Shown here piece after piece: positions 15,762 through 21,639 of a stretch of 50,217 nt of DNA; position 1 is the first letter of the stretch, and every line of letters begins with the position of its first letter. The notes beneath the pieces are model-generated. The model was not told the origin of the DNA, did not search any database, and saw nothing but the letters and a program-made list of their open reading frames with translations. Source of the DNA: Prevotella sp. (GTDB lineage Bacteria > Bacteroidota > Bacteroidia > Bacteroidales > Bacteroidaceae); assembly GCA_017554105.1 (NCBI GenBank), contig JAFZIY010000002.1, forward strand, positions 1 to 50,217. Direction: 5' to 3'. The position numbers and the translations under genes are program-made.

Positions 15762-15950
15762 ATGGCAAAGAAAGCAAAAGGTAATAGGGTACAGGTTATT
15801 CTTGAATGCACAGAGATGAAGAATAGCGGTCTTCCAGGAACAAGTCGCTATATCACAACAAAGAACCGCAAGAATACCCCAGAGCGTATGGAGTTGAAGA
15901 AGTACAACCCCATTCTGAAGCGTATGACTGTTCATAAGGAAATTAAATAA
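15762..15950 (+). CDS. rpmG: 50S ribosomal protein L33
   Basis: A 62-residue protein with L33 features: the start [18 protein letters not shown], then [21 protein letters not shown]. It has a single Cys and no CxxC pairs, so it is the zinc-free type, like L28 beside it. It lies between L28 and the DUF4295 gene in one transcript. Confidence 0.97.
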
Positions 15951-15966
15951 TTAAAACAGAAACGAG

Positions 15967-16125
15967 ATGGCAAAGAAAACTGTCGCAACCCTCCACGAAG
16001 GTTCTAAGGACGGGCGTGCATACACAAAGGTGATCAAGATGGAAAAGAGCCCAAAGACTGGTGCTTACATCTTCAATGAGCAGATGGTTCCTAACGAAGC
16101 CGTTAAGGATTTCTTCAAGAATTGA
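15967..16125 (+). CDS. DUF4295 small ribosome-operon protein
   Basis: A 52-residue basic protein (MAKKTVATLHEGSKDG... ending AVKDFFKN) found next to L28 and L33 in Bacteroidota and annotated as DUF4295. It starts 16 bp after the L33 stop and is followed by a terminator, so it is the last gene of the unit. Its position suggests an accessory or phylum-specific ribosomal component, but the function is inferred from context only. Confidence 0.9.
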   Translation: MAKKTVATLHEGSKDGRAYTKVIKMEKSPKTGAYIFNEQMVPNEAVKDFFKN

Positions 16126-16150
16126 TTTTCTTATAATTACTATAGAATTA

Positions 16151-16188
16151 AGCCGCAACATTTATGATGTTTGCGGCTAATTTTATTT
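16151..16188 (+). terminator. Rho-independent terminator after the L28/L33/DUF4295 unit
   Basis: AGCCGCAACAT and ATGTTTGCGGCT (16151-16178) form a stem with one bulged base and a 5-base loop, followed by TTTTATTT. Confidence 0.8.
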
Positions 16189-16216
16189 ATAACCGTCAAT
16201 AAAAAGACCAGTTAGA

Positions 16217-16248
16217 TTTGCTATTATAAAAGATTTGATGTAATTTTG
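16217..16248 (+). promoter_or_regulatory. Promoter of ftsY
   Basis: TTTG at 16217-16220 and TAATTTTG at 16241-16248 with a 20-bp spacer. The ATG is at 16266, so the leader is short. Confidence 0.7.
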
Positions 16249-16265
16249 TAGGCAAATTAGATATT

Positions 16266-17222
16266 ATGGCTATTTTTGGATTATTTAATAAGAAAAAAAA
16301 AGAGACACTCGATAAAGGTCTTGAAAAAACGAAAGAGAGTGTTTTCTCGAAACTGGCACGTGCCGTTGCCGGCAAGTCAAAAGTGGATGATGACGTTCTC
16401 GACAACCTTGAAGAAGTGCTTATTACCAGTGACGTGGGTGTAGACACTACTTTGAAGATTATAGAAAAGATTGAGAATAGAGTCGCACGTGACAAGTATG
16501 TTTCCACATCAGAACTGAATGGTATCTTAAGAGAGGAAATCGCCGACCTTCTTGCAGAAAATAATACTGAGGATAATGACAACTGGGACCTGCCATCAGA
16601 TCATGTTCCATACGTGATTCTTGTTGTTGGCGTGAATGGAGTAGGCAAGACGACGACTATTGGAAAACTTGCATATCAGTTCAAGAATGCAGGCAAGACC
16701 GTATATCTTGGTGCTGCCGACACCTTCAGGGCTGCTGCCGTAGAACAGTTATGCATCTGGGGAGAGCGCGTCGGTTGTCCTGTGATAAAGCAAAAGATGG
16801 GAAGTGACCCTGCTTCTGTTGCATACGACACTCTATGTTCGGCAAAGGCAAACGGGGCAGACGTTGTTCTTATTGACACAGCAGGACGCTTACATAATAA
16901 AGTGGGCTTGATGAACGAGCTTAAGAAGATTAAGGATGTCATGAAAAAAGTGGCTCCGACTGCTCCCGATGAGGTCTTGCTTGTTCTTGATGGCAGTACA
17001 GGCCAGAATGCTTTCGAGCAAGCAAAGCAGTTCGCTGCCGTTACCCAGATAACAAGTCTTGCTATCACGAAACTCGACGGTACAGCAAAGGGTGGAGTTG
17101 TGATAGGCATCAGCGACCAGTTGAAGGTTCCTGTGAAATACATCGGTCTTGGTGAGGGAATGGAAGACCTTCAACTCTTTAATAGACGACAGTTTGTTGA
17201 TTCGTTGTTCAGCAACGATTAG
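16266..17222 (+). CDS. ftsY: Signal recognition particle receptor FtsY
   Basis: The SRP receptor GTPase, which docks ribosome-nascent chains to the inner-membrane translocon. It has 318 residues with a short basic N-terminus and no acidic A domain, as in many Bacteroidota. The N domain spans about 20-100. In the G domain, G1 is GVNGVGKT (122-129), the insertion-box segment is near DTFRAAAVEQL, G3 is DTAGR (204-208) and G4 is TKLDGTAKGG. Transcription starts at its own promoter and probably continues into rimO, 29 bp downstream, and the HU genes. Confidence 0.97.
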   Translation: MAIFGLFNKKKKETLDKGLEKTKESVFSKLARAVAGKSKVDDDVLDNLEEVLITSDVGVDTTLKIIEKIENRVARDKYVSTSELNGILREEIADLLAENNTEDNDNWDLPSDHVPYVILVVGVNGVGKTTTIGKLAYQFKNAGKTVYLGAADTFRAAAVEQLCIWGERVGCPVIKQKMGSDPASVAYDTLCSAKANGADVVLIDTAGRLHNKVGLMNELKKIKDVMKKVAPTAPDEVLLVLDGSTGQNAFEQAKQFAAVTQITSLAITKLDGTAKGGVVIGISDQLKVPVKYIGLGEGMEDLQLFNRRQFVDSLFSND

Positions 17223-17251
17223 TGTTATAGAATATAACGGTAGGTATTGTC

Positions 17252-18553
17252 TTGAAACGTAATCACGTTGACATAATCACTCTTGGCTGCTCCAAGAATC
17301 TCGTTGATAGTGAGATTCTGATGAAGCAGTTTGTCTCTCATGGGTACTCATGTGAACATGATAGTGAGAATCCTCAAGGTGAGATAGCGGTCATTAATAC
17401 CTGTGGTTTTATCGGTGATGCAAAGGAAGAGAGCATAAACACCATTCTGGAGTTTGCAGAACGAAAGAAAAAGGGAATGCTGAAGAAGCTTTTTGTTATG
17501 GGATGTCTTTCTCAGAGATATAAAGAGGATCTTGAGATAAATCTTCCTGAAGTGGACAAATACTACGGGAAGTTTGACTATAAGCAACTAATAGTAGACC
17601 TTGGCATTGCCGAACAAGTACAGGATAGTACCGAACGCATCGTGACAACACCTTCACATTACGCCTATATCAAGATAAGTGAGGGATGTGACCGTCATTG
17701 TGCCTATTGTGCAATACCTATTATTACCGGCAAACATGTTAGTCGTCCTAAAGACGAGATTATCAATGAAATAAAACACCTTGTAAAGCAGGGTGTCAAG
17801 GAGTTTCAGATCATTGCCCAGGAACTCACTTTCTATGGGCGGGATATTGACGGGAAATCGCATATAGCGGAGTTAGTTGCCGAGATATCCGAGGTGGAAG
17901 GTGTTGAGTGGATAAGGCTTCATTATGCCTATCCCGCACAATTTCCATATGAACTACTTGATGTGATACGTGAAAAGAGTAATGTTTGCAAGTATCTCGA
18001 CATTGCCTTGCAGCATATTTCCGACCACATGCTTACAGCTATGCATAGGCACGTCACCAAGGAAGAGACATATAGGCTTATTGAAAAGATAAGAGAGAAG
18101 GTCCCCGGGATATCATTGAGAACTACATTAATGGTCGGATTCCCAGGGGAAACAGACGAGGACTTCAAGGAACTAATGGAGTTTACTCGATGGGCGAGGT
18201 TTGAGAGAATGGGCGCGTTTGCCTATTCGGAGGAAGAAGGAACATATAGCGAGAAGCATTACGAGGACGATGTGCCTGAGAGTGTTAAGGAGAAACGGCT
18301 TTCTGACCTTATGATGCTACAGCAGAACATTAGTTCCGAACTTGAGGAAACACGCGTTGGCTCGGTCATGAAGGTAATTATTGACAGGGAGGAAGGCGAC
18401 TACTATGTGGGAAGGACAGAATATAGTTCGCCAGAGGTGGATCCTGAGGTGCTTATCCGTGCCGATGAGAAAGAACTGAACATAGGAGAGTTCTATGAGG
18501 TGAAGATTATAGGCTCTGAAGAGTTCGACCTTTATGCCACTACCATTTATTGA
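17252..18553 (+). CDS. rimO: Ribosomal protein S12 methylthiotransferase RimO
   Basis: A radical SAM enzyme that adds a methylthio group to an aspartate of ribosomal protein S12. It has 433 residues. The UPF0004 domain carries cluster ligands Cys13, Cys51 and Cys85. The radical SAM motif is CDRHCAYC (Cys146, Cys150, Cys153), and the TRAM domain covers about 365-433. The start codon is TTG at 17252. No ATG or GTG lies between it and the in-frame stop at 17228-17230, and starting here gives the normal N-terminus. TTG is rare for this phylum. The gene ends 24 bp before the first HU gene. Confidence 0.96.
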   Translation: MKRNHVDIITLGCSKNLVDSEILMKQFVSHGYSCEHDSENPQGEIAVINTCGFIGDAKEESINTILEFAERKKKGMLKKLFVMGCLSQRYKEDLEINLPEVDKYYGKFDYKQLIVDLGIAEQVQDSTERIVTTPSHYAYIKISEGCDRHCAYCAIPIITGKHVSRPKDEIINEIKHLVKQGVKEFQIIAQELTFYGRDIDGKSHIAELVAEISEVEGVEWIRLHYAYPAQFPYELLDVIREKSNVCKYLDIALQHISDHMLTAMHRHVTKEETYRLIEKIREKVPGISLRTTLMVGFPGETDEDFKELMEFTRWARFERMGAFAYSEEEGTYSEKHYEDDVPESVKEKRLSDLMMLQQNISSELEETRVGSVMKVIIDREEGDYYVGRTEYSSPEVDPEVLIRADEKELNIGEFYEVKIIGSEEFDLYATTIY

Positions 18554-18577
18554 AAAGAAGAAAACATTATATAGAAG

Positions 18578-18871
18578 ATGAATAATAAGGACTTCATACA
18601 CCAATTGTCGTTAAGGTTGGACATCTCACAAGAGGACGTCCAGTCTATCATGAATAAGACAATAGACATCATGGGTGATATATTCCAGGAAGGCGACTCG
18701 ATACAGATGACTAACTTCGGAACGTTTGAAGTAAAGAAAAGAATGGAGCGAGTCGTCGTAAATCCTGGTACCAAACAGCGTATGCTTGTTCCACCGAAAC
18801 TGGTTTTGGGTTTCAAGCCCGTTGCTTCTATTAAGGAGAAACTAAAGAATGGAGGAAATCGCAATGAGTAA
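18578..18871 (+). CDS. HU/IHF-family DNA-binding protein
   Basis: A 97-residue nucleoid protein. Features are the N-terminal helices (NNKDFIHQLSLRLDISQEDV), the family box NFGTFEVKKR near 47-56, and an arm that keeps the Asn-Pro pair (VVVNPGTKQRM) that wedges into DNA. It is between rimO and a second, much longer HU-type gene; its end overlaps that gene's ATG by 8 bp. Co-translation suggests that the two HU proteins work together, possibly as heterodimers, which is inference. Confidence 0.92.
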   Translation: MNNKDFIHQLSLRLDISQEDVQSIMNKTIDIMGDIFQEGDSIQMTNFGTFEVKKRMERVVVNPGTKQRMLVPPKLVLGFKPVASIKEKLKNGGNRNE

Positions 18872-20375
18872 GATAACAATACAGGATTTCGCCATTCGTC
18901 TTGCTGAGAGGAAGAACATAAGTGTTGCTGATGCCCAGCGCTTCATGACAGCAATGCTTGACACTATCAATGAAGGACTTAGTAATGATAAAGTCGTTAA
19001 GATTAAAGGCTTAGGAACTTTTAAGGTCATTGATGTCAAGCAACGCAAGAGCGTTGATGTAAATACTGGTGAGGAAATCATCATTGAGGGAAGGGGGAAA
19101 ATAACATTCACTCCTGACACAATAATGAGAGATTTGGTAAACAAGCCATTCTCACAATTTGAGACTGTCCTACTTAACGAAGGTGTTGATTTCTCTGAAA
19201 TGGATGCTCCGAGTGTTGAAGATGAGGAATCAGCAGAGCTAAATGAGACAGTAGAAAAGGAAGAACCTCAAGAAATCATTCCTCAAGAGGAAAAGATTAT
19301 ACCACAGGAGGAAGAATTATTACCTCAAGAAGTGGAGGAAAAACCGCAAGAAGAAGTCGAGAAGCACGTGGAAGAAGAACCAGACATTGTGTCAGGCGAA
19401 TCCTTTAGTGAGGCACTTCTTGTGTTGGATTATATTAATGGAAAGGAATTACCGAAGGAAGAACCTCAAGAAGAAAAAGAGGAGCCAGCCCTTGATGCTA
19501 CCGACGAGGCAATAGCAGATGCGCTTTTTGTCCTGAATACTCTTGACGACGACAACATAGATGTTCCAATTACGACTGAAACAACTGTGGAGCCTGTTGA
19601 AGAAGAGTCTGCAGAGACTCAAGAGGCACCTGTTCAGACACTTATGGAACCAAGCAATGACGAGATGACGGATGACGTTCCAAGTAACGAAGAGCAGAGT
19701 GTTGAGGAAGATACTACTGAAGAGATAGTCGAAGAGGAACAACCGACGGAGGAACTGGAGAATGACGCATATGAAGAAGAGGAGCATTCGAGTCCATGGA
19801 AACGTTGGCTTATTGCTATTGCACTTATTGGAGTAGTGGGACTGTTGTCATATTACTGCATTAATTACTTCTATAACAAGGAAGGTTTGGCGCAAGAGGA
19901 AATAAATGGTAACAATACGGTCGTGGATGATAACACACCTGCGGCTAATGTTGTTGCTGATTCTGTTGCAATCGCTGACTCTTTGAATAGGGCTATTCGT
20001 GAAAAAGAGATTGAGGACTCTATTGCAGCCTTGACTTTGAAAGAAAAGCAAGAGAAAACAGAGCCCCCAAAGATTGCTCAACAAAATACTCAGGCAGAGA
20101 AGCAAGAGCCAGAGAAACAACAAGTTCAAACTCAGTCAAACAACAAAGAACTTGAATATGCTAAAAGGCTCGTGAAATATGGTGCGTATAACATTGTCGG
20201 AACCGACCAGGTGATTACCATAAAGAAAGGTCAGACAATGACTTCTGTGGCCAAGGCTTATCTCGGAAAGGATATGGCATGCTATATCGAAGTGCATAAT
20301 GGAACCACGACTTTAATTGAGGGACAGAAGTTGAAAATACCGAAACTGGAAACCAAAAAGAAGTCGAAGAGATAA
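18864..20375 (+). CDS. HU-domain protein with acidic linker, transmembrane helix and LysM-like C-terminus
   Basis: A 503-residue protein from ATG 18864; ATG 18849 adds five residues but overlaps the preceding gene further. Residues 1-95 are an HU fold with the box KGLGTFKVIDV. In the DNA arm the usual Pro is replaced (VDVNTGEEI). A Glu/Pro/Gln-rich acidic linker runs from about 110 to 305. A single hydrophobic helix (WLIAIALIGVVGLLSYYC) lies near 313-330. A second charged linker leads to a LysM-like unit at about 451-496 (KKGQTMTSVAKAYLG, then EGQKLKIPKL). The topology is probably HU in the cytoplasm and LysM in the periplasm. DNA binding and peptidoglycan binding at opposite ends are inferred from family resemblance; neither is proven. 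Confidence 0.82.
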   Translation: MSKITIQDFAIRLAERKNISVADAQRFMTAMLDTINEGLSNDKVVKIKGLGTFKVIDVKQRKSVDVNTGEEIIIEGRGKITFTPDTIMRDLVNKPFSQFETVLLNEGVDFSEMDAPSVEDEESAELNETVEKEEPQEIIPQEEKIIPQEEELLPQEVEEKPQEEVEKHVEEEPDIVSGESFSEALLVLDYINGKELPKEEPQEEKEEPALDATDEAIADALFVLNTLDDDNIDVPITTETTVEPVEEESAETQEAPVQTLMEPSNDEMTDDVPSNEEQSVEEDTTEEIVEEEQPTEELENDAYEEEEHSSPWKRWLIAIALIGVVGLLSYYCINYFYNKEGLAQEEINGNNTVVDDNTPAANVVADSVAIADSLNRAIREKEIEDSIAALTLKEKQEKTEPPKIAQQNTQAEKQEPEKQQVQTQSNNKELEYAKRLVKYGAYNIVGTDQVITIKKGQTMTSVAKAYLGKDMACYIEVHNGTTTLIEGQKLKIPKLETKKKSKR

Positions 20376-20395
20376 AGCAGTCCTATACGTGTCCC

Positions 20396-20483
20396 AAAGA
20401 TGGCTTTTGGCAGTCTCAAAGATGGCTTTTTACGTCCTCAAAGACGTCCTTTTACATGCTAAAAGATATGCTTTGGAAGGCTT
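20396..20483. repeat. Four units of a 22-bp periodic intergenic repeat
   Basis: AAAGA recurs at 20396, 20418, 20440 and 20462, exactly 22 bp apart. Each unit has the form AAAGAnnnnCTTTT or close to it, so each can form a small hairpin. ACGTGTC precedes the array (20387-20393). A related array lies at 33866-33940. The unit sequences vary and there are no spacers, so this is not a CRISPR array. Confidence 0.7.
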
Positions 20484-20514
20484 GGAAATAATAACTTTAA
20501 GGGTATTAAACATA

Positions 20515-20552
20515 AAGTTTCTTAAAAGTGAGTTTTAAGAAACTTTTTTTAT
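20515..20552 (+). terminator. Rho-independent terminator after the HU genes
   Basis: A perfect 13-bp stem (20515-20527 with 20533-20545) and a 5-base loop, followed by a run of T. Confidence 0.85.
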
Positions 20553-20571
20553 ACTTTTTTAGTCGCTATTC

Positions 20572-20603
20572 TTCGGAAATAAAAAGCGAAAGTATTACTT
20601 TTG
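20572..20603 (+). promoter_or_regulatory. Promoter of the moxR-bat cluster
   Basis: TACTTTTG at 20596-20603 fits the -7 consensus. TTCG at 20572-20575 is an imperfect -33 element 20 bp upstream. The ATG is at 20644. Confidence 0.55.
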
Positions 20604-20643
20604 CATTTGAATAAAGAATATAATAATTAATAAAGATAAAACT

Positions 20644-21639
20644 ATGGCAGAAGCTTTTGATATACGTGAGTTGAACAACCGTATAGAGCAGCAGAGTTCG
20701 TTTATTGATACCCTTATCATGGGTATGGATCGTGTAATCGTAGGACAGAAGCATCTCGTTGATTCTCTCCTTATCGGACTTCTTAGCGATGGACACATAC
20801 TTCTTGAGGGTGTTCCAGGTCTGGCTAAGACACTTGCAATTAAAACACTGGCGCAGCTTATTGACGCCGATTACAGTCGCATACAGTTCACTCCCGACCT
20901 GTTGCCGGCAGATGTAATAGGCACATTGATATACTCTCAGAAGGACGAGAACTTCCAAGTGAAGAAAGGTCCGGTATTTGCGAATTTCGTATTAGCCGAC
21001 GAAATAAACCGCGCACCTGCCAAAGTGCAGAGTGCTCTGCTTGAGGCTATGCAGGAGCATATGGTTACTATTGGAAGCGATACGTTTAATCTTCCTAATC
21101 CTTTCCTCGTGATGGCAACCCAGAACCCTATCGAGCAGGAGGGAACATATCCGCTTCCCGAGGCTCAGGTTGACCGTTTCATGCTGAAGGTTGTGATAGA
21201 CTATCCTTCTATTGAAGAGGAAAAACTGATTATCAGAGAGAATCTTCAGAGTTCTCTGCCAACGGTTACTCCTGTTATTACATCCGAGGAGATTCTCAAT
21301 GCGCGTGATGTGGTAAGGCAGGTATATATTGACGAGAAGATAGAGCAATATATCGCGGACATAGTGTTTGCTACCCGTTATCCTGACAAGTATGGCTTGG
21401 CCTCGCTGAAGAATATGATTACATTTGGCGGTTCTCCCCGTGCTTCAATCAATTTGGCAAAGGCTGCTCGTGCGTTCGCCTTTATCAAGCGTAGAGGCTA
21501 TGTGGTGCCGGAAGATGTTCGTGCTGTTGCACATGATGTTTTGCGTCATCGCATCGGCTTAAGCTATGAGGCAGAGGCAAGCAACGTTACAAGTGAGGAA
21601 ATCGTGAGTAACATCATCAACAAGGTTGAGGTTCCATAA
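20644..21639 (+). CDS. MoxR-family AAA+ ATPase
   Basis: A 331-residue ATPase of the MoxR/RavA group, which acts as a chaperone for proteins with von Willebrand A domains. Walker A is LEGVPGLAKT, Walker B is VLADEINRAP, and sensor 1 is MATQNPIEQEGTYPLPEAQVDRF. The C-terminal lid domain has GGSPRASINLAKAARAFA. It heads the cluster that includes DUF58, BatA and BatB, all of which it could help to assemble or load with metal. The start at 20644 is the first ATG after the promoter. Confidence 0.95.
   Translation: MAEAFDIRELNNRIEQQSSFIDTLIMGMDRVIVGQKHLVDSLLIGLLSDGHILLEGVPGLAKTLAIKTLAQLIDADYSRIQFTPDLLPADVIGTLIYSQKDENFQVKKGPVFANFVLADEINRAPAKVQSALLEAMQEHMVTIGSDTFNLPNPFLVMATQNPIEQEGTYPLPEAQVDRFMLKVVIDYPSIEEEKLIIRENLQSSLPTVTPVITSEEILNARDVVRQVYIDEKIEQYIADIVFATRYPDKYGLASLKNMITFGGSPRASINLAKAARAFAFIKRRGYVVPEDVRAVAHDVLRHRIGLSYEAEASNVTSEEIVSNIINKVEVP

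Follow-up and report, generated by a model that had tools for sequence, protein, structure and literature searches.

A Conserved HU-Fold Gene Pair of Bacteroidales Includes a Membrane HU With a LysM-Like End and May Link the Nucleoid to Peptidoglycan

Introduction

IHF alpha/beta and HU alpha/beta each consist of two co-inherited HU-fold paralogues, as do the two proteins described here, a short HU (S) and a membrane HU (F). Unlike in those heterodimers, the genes for S and F are adjacent, F is membrane-anchored, and the F arm in Bacteroidales is neutral and without Pro. A second related group is HU-CCDC81_bac (PF18174, PF18175, PF05036), whose members share with F an N-terminal HU, a hydrophobic segment and a C-terminal end of the peptidoglycan-binding type. 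They differ in that this end is SPOR and not LysM, that both of their HU domains are CCDC81-type, and that they are encoded by one gene and not by a pair. A role in chromosome partitioning is said to have been predicted for these double-HU proteins in a treatment of HU clades.

A third group, HU-HIG (PF18291), joins HU to extra domains according to its Pfam name. Going by the same name, these are wHTH, Ig or glycine-rich domains, unlike those of F, which scores a sub-threshold 16.6 bits against 26.2. The LysM fold of F is common to Kbp, described in its PDB title as potassium-binding, and to the NlpC/P60 endopeptidase of T. thermophilus; unlike F, the solved chains of both have no HU domain listed. 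No paper on an HU-transmembrane (TM)-LysM architecture was among the matches listed in the literature searched, which does not imply its absence from print. The HU-clades paper of Burroughs et al. (2017; doi 10.1080/15384101.2017.1315494) is among the references of PMC12218091.

Results

Architecture of the Membrane HU

We analyzed a stretch of 50,217 nucleotides from a Prevotella sp. genome, referred to below as the window, whose relevant features are collected in Table 1. The initial annotation had described F as an HU domain, an acidic linker, one TM helix and a LysM-like end joined in 503 residues. Pfam, hydropathy, profile comparison and an AlphaFold model all agree with this, confirming that the architecture is real. 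In the Pfam scan the HU domain was well over the PF00216 cut-off (67.5 vs 22.4 bits). The 213 residues of the acidic linker include 78 D/E vs 7 K/R, and the TM stretch (residues 320-338 in the numbering of the 508-aa open reading frame) is the sole segment with hydropathy above 1.6. That F might be a chance or frame artefact was ruled out by its conservation in the first 30 of 30 loci. In Parabacteroides distasonis and Bacteroides finegoldii, RefSeq labels both genes of the pair merely as "HU family DNA-binding protein."

Table 1. Features of the S-F locus and its upstream neighbors, with positions in the window.
Feature	Position	Strand	Basis
ftsY, upstream with rimO	16266-17222		Gene order in related loci; RefSeq names in Parabacteroides, Bacteroides
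rimO, common upstream neighbor	17252..18553	+	Gene order in related loci; RefSeq names in Parabacteroides, Bacteroides
Short HU, 97 aa (S), co-inherited partner of F	18578..18871	+	PF00216 E 1.5e-21; overlaps F start by 8 bases
HU-TM-LysM protein, 503 aa ("membrane HU," F; also P0001)	18864..20375	+	ORF, Pfam, profiles, AlphaFold model
HU domain of F, residues 5-93	18876..19142	+	PF00216 E 1.2e-18; genome scan 71.8 bits
Val66 codon of F, at the place of DNA-wedging Pro63 in E. coli HU-alpha	19059..19061	+	Alignment
Acidic linker of F, residues 98-310, net charge -71, probably disordered, predicted cytoplasmic	19155..19793	+	pLDDT mostly <50
TM segment of F, residues 315-333	19806..19862	+	Hydropathy 2.24; model helix 311-350
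Linker of F, presumed periplasmic, residues 334-425	19863..20138	+	AlphaFold model, composition
LysM domain of F, residues 442-497	20187..20354	+	AlphaFold model, family-profile matches
Terminator-like hairpin with T run	20514..20550	+	Inverted repeat I1; absent from the consensus scan's matches

The LysM-like unit proposed earlier stood up in the AlphaFold model, where the C-terminus takes a beta-alpha-alpha-beta fold, and in profile matches to solved LysM domains; its Pfam score stayed below the cut-off. On PF01476, F itself reached 13.2 bits and two relatives (L113 and L160) reached 16.6 and 17.4 bits, against a cut-off of 20.9. Kbp was the top solved match for the C-terminal part of family profile A4 (E 7.1e-10), and the T. 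thermophilus NlpC/P60 endopeptidase (4uz2) was the top solved match for profile A2 (E 7.8e-7). A Foldseek search with the small C-terminal domain of F gave a best E of only 0.071. By its fold this domain may bind peptidoglycan through GlcNAc polymers; the fold is, however, shared by Kbp and by phage baseplates, which are not known to bind the wall and which rank among the closest matches.

Topology

Membrane topology was assessed in 159 non-redundant F proteins (169 before redundancy was removed). One segment exceeded hydropathy 1.6 in 157 of these, and the other two had none (peaks of 1.5 and 1.53). K/R residues were more numerous before the TM segment than after it in 112 proteins, equal in 30 and fewer in 17. 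In Prevotellaceae the net charge of the TM flanks showed no bias (+0.17 vs +0.21), although the K/R counts were biased. The linker before the TM segment, counted from residue 111, had a median length of 156, 124, and 107 residues in Prevotellaceae, other Bacteroidales and f135 (a coded family outside the class), respectively, and the median stretch between the TM segment and the last 75 residues was 94, 78, and 107.

The N-in/C-out orientation put forward in the initial annotation is likely, since the HU domain lies at the extreme N-terminus, there is no second hydrophobic segment, and K/R are in excess before the TM segment; the net charges in Prevotellaceae did not add to its support.

Distribution

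Within the same genus, F was found in 30 of 35 genomes (the source genome not counted), 28 as full loci and two (G009 and G019) with both ends present in the match rows. The five genomes without F (G001, G005, G014, G021, and G023) are 50-86% complete. Applying a threshold of E 1e-30 to a draw of 198 genomes of the order, source genome included, gave 34 with F, which span 18 coded families as counted from the match rows. The remaining 164 of 198 were without F at this threshold, so the device is dispensable in the phylum.

A phylum draw of 296 genomes was searched at E 1e-20 or better. Beyond the window's own family, all matches came from f135, which lies in another class, with F in 30 of its 35 listed genomes; the listing omits 13 genomes that gave no match. 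Families f114-f123, of the same class, reached at best 2.4e-17 in this draw, with short frames where shown. Among named relatives, at least 553 with F were confirmed by scan; the best 80 were taken further, with Prevotella koreensis giving the top E-value. Outside Prevotellaceae, F occurs in P. distasonis, B. finegoldii and Phocaeicola massiliensis; all three proteins have a single hydrophobic segment, and their C-termini look LysM-like on inspection by eye. The initial annotation had proposed a search of Bacteroidales for the fusion protein and its short HU partner, and the two occur together in all 34 of the 198 order genomes that have F. F is a conserved chromosomal gene.

Pairing and Fusion of S and F

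Wherever F was found in the order draw, S accompanied it, lying beside F in 32 of the 34 genomes and forming one frame with it in the remaining two. An S-profile score of 94.7 bits or more was seen in 29 of the 198 genomes, each time directly beside F, and the next row below (87.7 bits) was an unlinked HU. Three further genomes (G110, G164, and G169) have an S that adjoins F with a lower score. Among order genomes without F the best S-profile score was 84.0 bits (G103), and none reached an S-level score. In the best 80 of the at least 553 named relatives, S was beside F in 79 and fused to it in one (L094). S precedes F in 79 of these 80 loci, overlapping it in 63 and separated by 0-35 bases in 16. 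As coordinates follow the longest open reading frames, a start or the extent of an overlap could in some cases be wrong by a few codons. In f135, where 30 genomes have F, S was beside F in all 27 of the loci read.

The fusion in L094, a Prevotellaceae metagenome-assembled genome (MAG), is one 567-aa frame (L094:3992-5695) containing a full S (residues 1-94, 105 bits) and a full F from about residue 104, and PF00216 finds two stretches in it (E 5.1e-40). A first reading of this locus as being without a short HU was rejected, S being fused to F there. The fusion may be natural or, as it comes from a single MAG contig, an indel error joining two frames.

Both other fusions belong to family f83 (G118 and G204), where rimO (E 1.1e-174 and 4.3e-173) is directly followed by one open reading frame (L257:1489-2865 and L258:1412-2734) in which an S-type HU is joined to an F-type HU that has no arm, a TM segment and LysM. 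Their HU parts are strongly divergent: Pfam recognizes that of L257 only faintly (E 0.0024) and assigns L258 to none of its HU families. The F-type HU scored 36.4 and 24.4 bits against 6.6 for the best of 2000 shuffles, and the S-type HU 28.3 and 18.4 bits against 6.4. Strict co-occurrence, adjacency and these fusions back the S-F heterodimer suggested in the initial annotation strongly if indirectly, and we infer that S and F may dimerize physically. The top solved match of the family profile was the single-chain IHF 2iie (E 4.1e-26); the NCBIfam IHF models NF001401 and TIGR00987 stayed far below their cut-offs, at 48.4 bits against 111 and 45.2 bits against 120.25.

Ancestry and Arm Residues

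A tree of HU domains was built from 65 sequences and 84 columns, with the arm tip excluded; it is unrooted, comes from a quick search on few columns, and leaves out the f83 fused loci and L094. It placed 31 F sequences on one branch (SH-aLRT 99) and 31 S sequences on another (98), with two ordinary HUs of the source genome and E. coli HU outside both. Bacteroidales and f135 share both branches, so the pair either already formed one unit in a shared ancestor or spread as one.

The earlier observation that the F arm has Val at the place of the wedging Pro, which the short HU keeps, agrees with the alignment. This Val is not peculiar to the source F, a possibility ruled out by V/I being found lineage-wide in Bacteroidales. 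Among the 104 Prevotellaceae rows of F, 103 have V/I at HU-alpha position 63, the lone P being that of L094, whose row is its S part. The same holds for 24 of 28 rows from other Bacteroidales, where L138 and L139 have gaps, L119 has E and L137 has P. This makes V/I 127 of 132 across Bacteroidales rows, and f135 has P in 27 of 27. In S, position 63 is P in 157 of 158 sequences, comprising 103/103 in Prevotellaceae, 27/28 in other Bacteroidales (not L139) and 27/27 in f135. The rows of L137 and f135, read with the unrooted tree, suggest that F originally carried Pro and that the replacement took place inside Bacteroidales. An arm-tip Pro is no requirement of Pfam family PF00216, and one HU of the source genome (L217) likewise has none by eye.

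The basic residues of the arm are also divided between the two proteins. Position 55 is basic in 100, 93, and 85% of S and in 1, 0, and 0% of F (Prevotellaceae, other Bacteroidales and f135, respectively), and the arm carries a median net charge of +5, +6, and +3 in S against -1, 0, and +1 in F. Position 58 is basic in F too (100, 89, and 100%), and positions 51 and 76 in Bacteroidales are basic more often in F than in S. As the F arm is without most basic residues, DNA binding by F itself is doubtful and a tether would rest on S. This split of labor is only partial in f135, where F keeps Pro.

HU homodimers are common, and with the Pro kept by F of f135 this could suggest that F is a homodimer with S a mere neighbor, each acting alone, so that any tether would need no S. 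The strict co-occurrence and adjacency of the pair, its separate branches and its fusions make such an arrangement quite improbable, and favor the heterodimer.

In four loci the F arm is deleted (L138, L139, L259, and L260), and S has also lost its Pro in L139, L259, and L260 while retaining it in L138. DNA bending is therefore not universal, given these losses in three of four armless-F loci and the very divergent HU parts of G118 and G204. A scaffold-like role has been proposed for CCDC81-type HU domains in eukaryotes, and here too the HU pair could act mainly off DNA, with the HU of F as a protein-protein module and the complex as an envelope scaffold. The loss of Pro and of most arm basic residues from Bacteroidales F would suit this, as would the lineages in which that arm is deleted and the Pro of S gone too. 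Nevertheless, a scaffold would need neither the nearly invariant Pro of S (157/158) nor its basic position 55 (85-100%), and we consider this explanation unlikely. Contact with DNA through S is the reading that we retain.

Gene Neighborhood

The order commonly seen in Bacteroidales is rpmB-rpmG-ftsY-rimO upstream of the pair and MoxR-DUF58-Bat downstream, with the outer gene order varying. A recent or mobile one-off origin for F was ruled out because many relatives have it at the same place, flanked by rimO on one side and the MoxR/Bat genes on the other. Four records filed in a plasmid collection contain the S-F unit (NZ_OY725834.1, NZ_OY725888.1, OY726008.1, and NC_022111.1, a 1.77-Mb replicon). 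In NZ_OY725834.1 and NZ_OY725888.1 the unit is accompanied by ftsY, rimO and the downstream genes in matching annotated order, so these two look like pieces of chromosome; all four look like chromosomal segments deposited as plasmids.

Downstream of F, the terminator-like hairpin may close the S-F unit. A 22-base repeat in four to five imperfect copies (20373-20489) lies between the F stop codon and this hairpin. A consensus promoter scan of positions 15900-20900 was uninformative (7 found vs 9.5 expected).

Of 12 window genes compared in f135, the pair alone was retained, in 14 of 14 loci tested. This bears on whether S and F could form a latent regulator, in which LysM would sense the wall, a protease would cut the tether and the freed HU pair would act on transcription or DNA under envelope stress. 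F is laid out as a single-pass sensor with a DNA-binding head and has long flexible linkers. Against this, no compared neighbor other than the pair itself is present in the 14 f135 loci, and HU as a rule has no sequence specificity. We therefore regard a latent regulator as very unlikely, and the tether remains the preferred reading.

Other HU-Fold Proteins in the Source Genome

The source genome has ten PF00216 matches, four of which are full-length HU domains, S and F among them. The six weaker matches, on contigs C5, C12, C13, C16, and C22, are frames of 148-157 aa, which by their size are perhaps of the HU-HIG type. There is one ParB_N match, and the MinC profile had no match in this genome.

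Contig C12 also encodes a 372-aa protein (L181:2822-3940) with two CCDC81-type HU domains and, by eye, a hydrophobic segment. Its SPOR match is sub-threshold (13.7 of 21 bits), and SPOR is over the cut-off in all six of the relatives scanned (6/6). PF18174 was found in 54 of 60 genomes, source included, and a PDB search with a CCDC81 protein gave no match. F itself reaches 20.6 bits on PF18175 (CCDC81_bac_2) vs a cut-off of 35, and the fused L094 protein 39.4 bits over two stretches; PF18174 is absent from the match list of both. With this double-HU-TM-SPOR-like protein in the same genome, a membrane-anchored HU with a wall-binding-type end is not unique to F, whose kind is thus partly known already.

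Discussion

The analysis establishes the domains, the one TM segment, the conserved pair, its fusions and the way in which the arm residues are split between the two proteins, and these fit a model in which the overlapping genes would give rise to one membrane-anchored HU heterodimer. S would make the DNA contacts through its basic arm and wedging Pro, and F would supply the other half of the dimer body together with a long acidic cytoplasmic tether. From there a single TM helix, N-in/C-out, would lead to a periplasmic LysM holding peptidoglycan, while the acidic linker would keep the membrane end off the DNA. Nucleoid DNA would in this way be tied to the wall at many points, and the role of the tether may lie in nucleoid positioning or segregation.

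That S and F form a membrane-anchored HU heterodimer linking the nucleoid to peptidoglycan is a proposal that we hold with moderate confidence. It is the most economical reading, each functional step of which (dimerization, DNA binding, topology, peptidoglycan binding and the tethering itself) we infer from sequence comparison and structure prediction. A stronger version is offered tentatively and may well go too far: that across distant Bacteroidota the pair, inherited as two genes in one unit, is an obligate, IHF-like, envelope-anchored heterodimer that connects the nucleoid mechanically and directly with peptidoglycan, and in which S grips the DNA and F has ceded its grip to become the anchor.

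The S-F fusions offer a single-chain form usable for structural work. The conservation of the pair in gut commensals (Bacteroides, Parabacteroides) makes nucleoid-wall tethering testable by single-gene deletion, which bears on how bacterial chromosomes are held relative to the envelope. If the stronger version is true, then together with the double-HU-TM-SPOR type in the same cells it would make HU-fold nucleoid-wall tethering a device general to the phylum, in two versions that differ in their wall-binding end.
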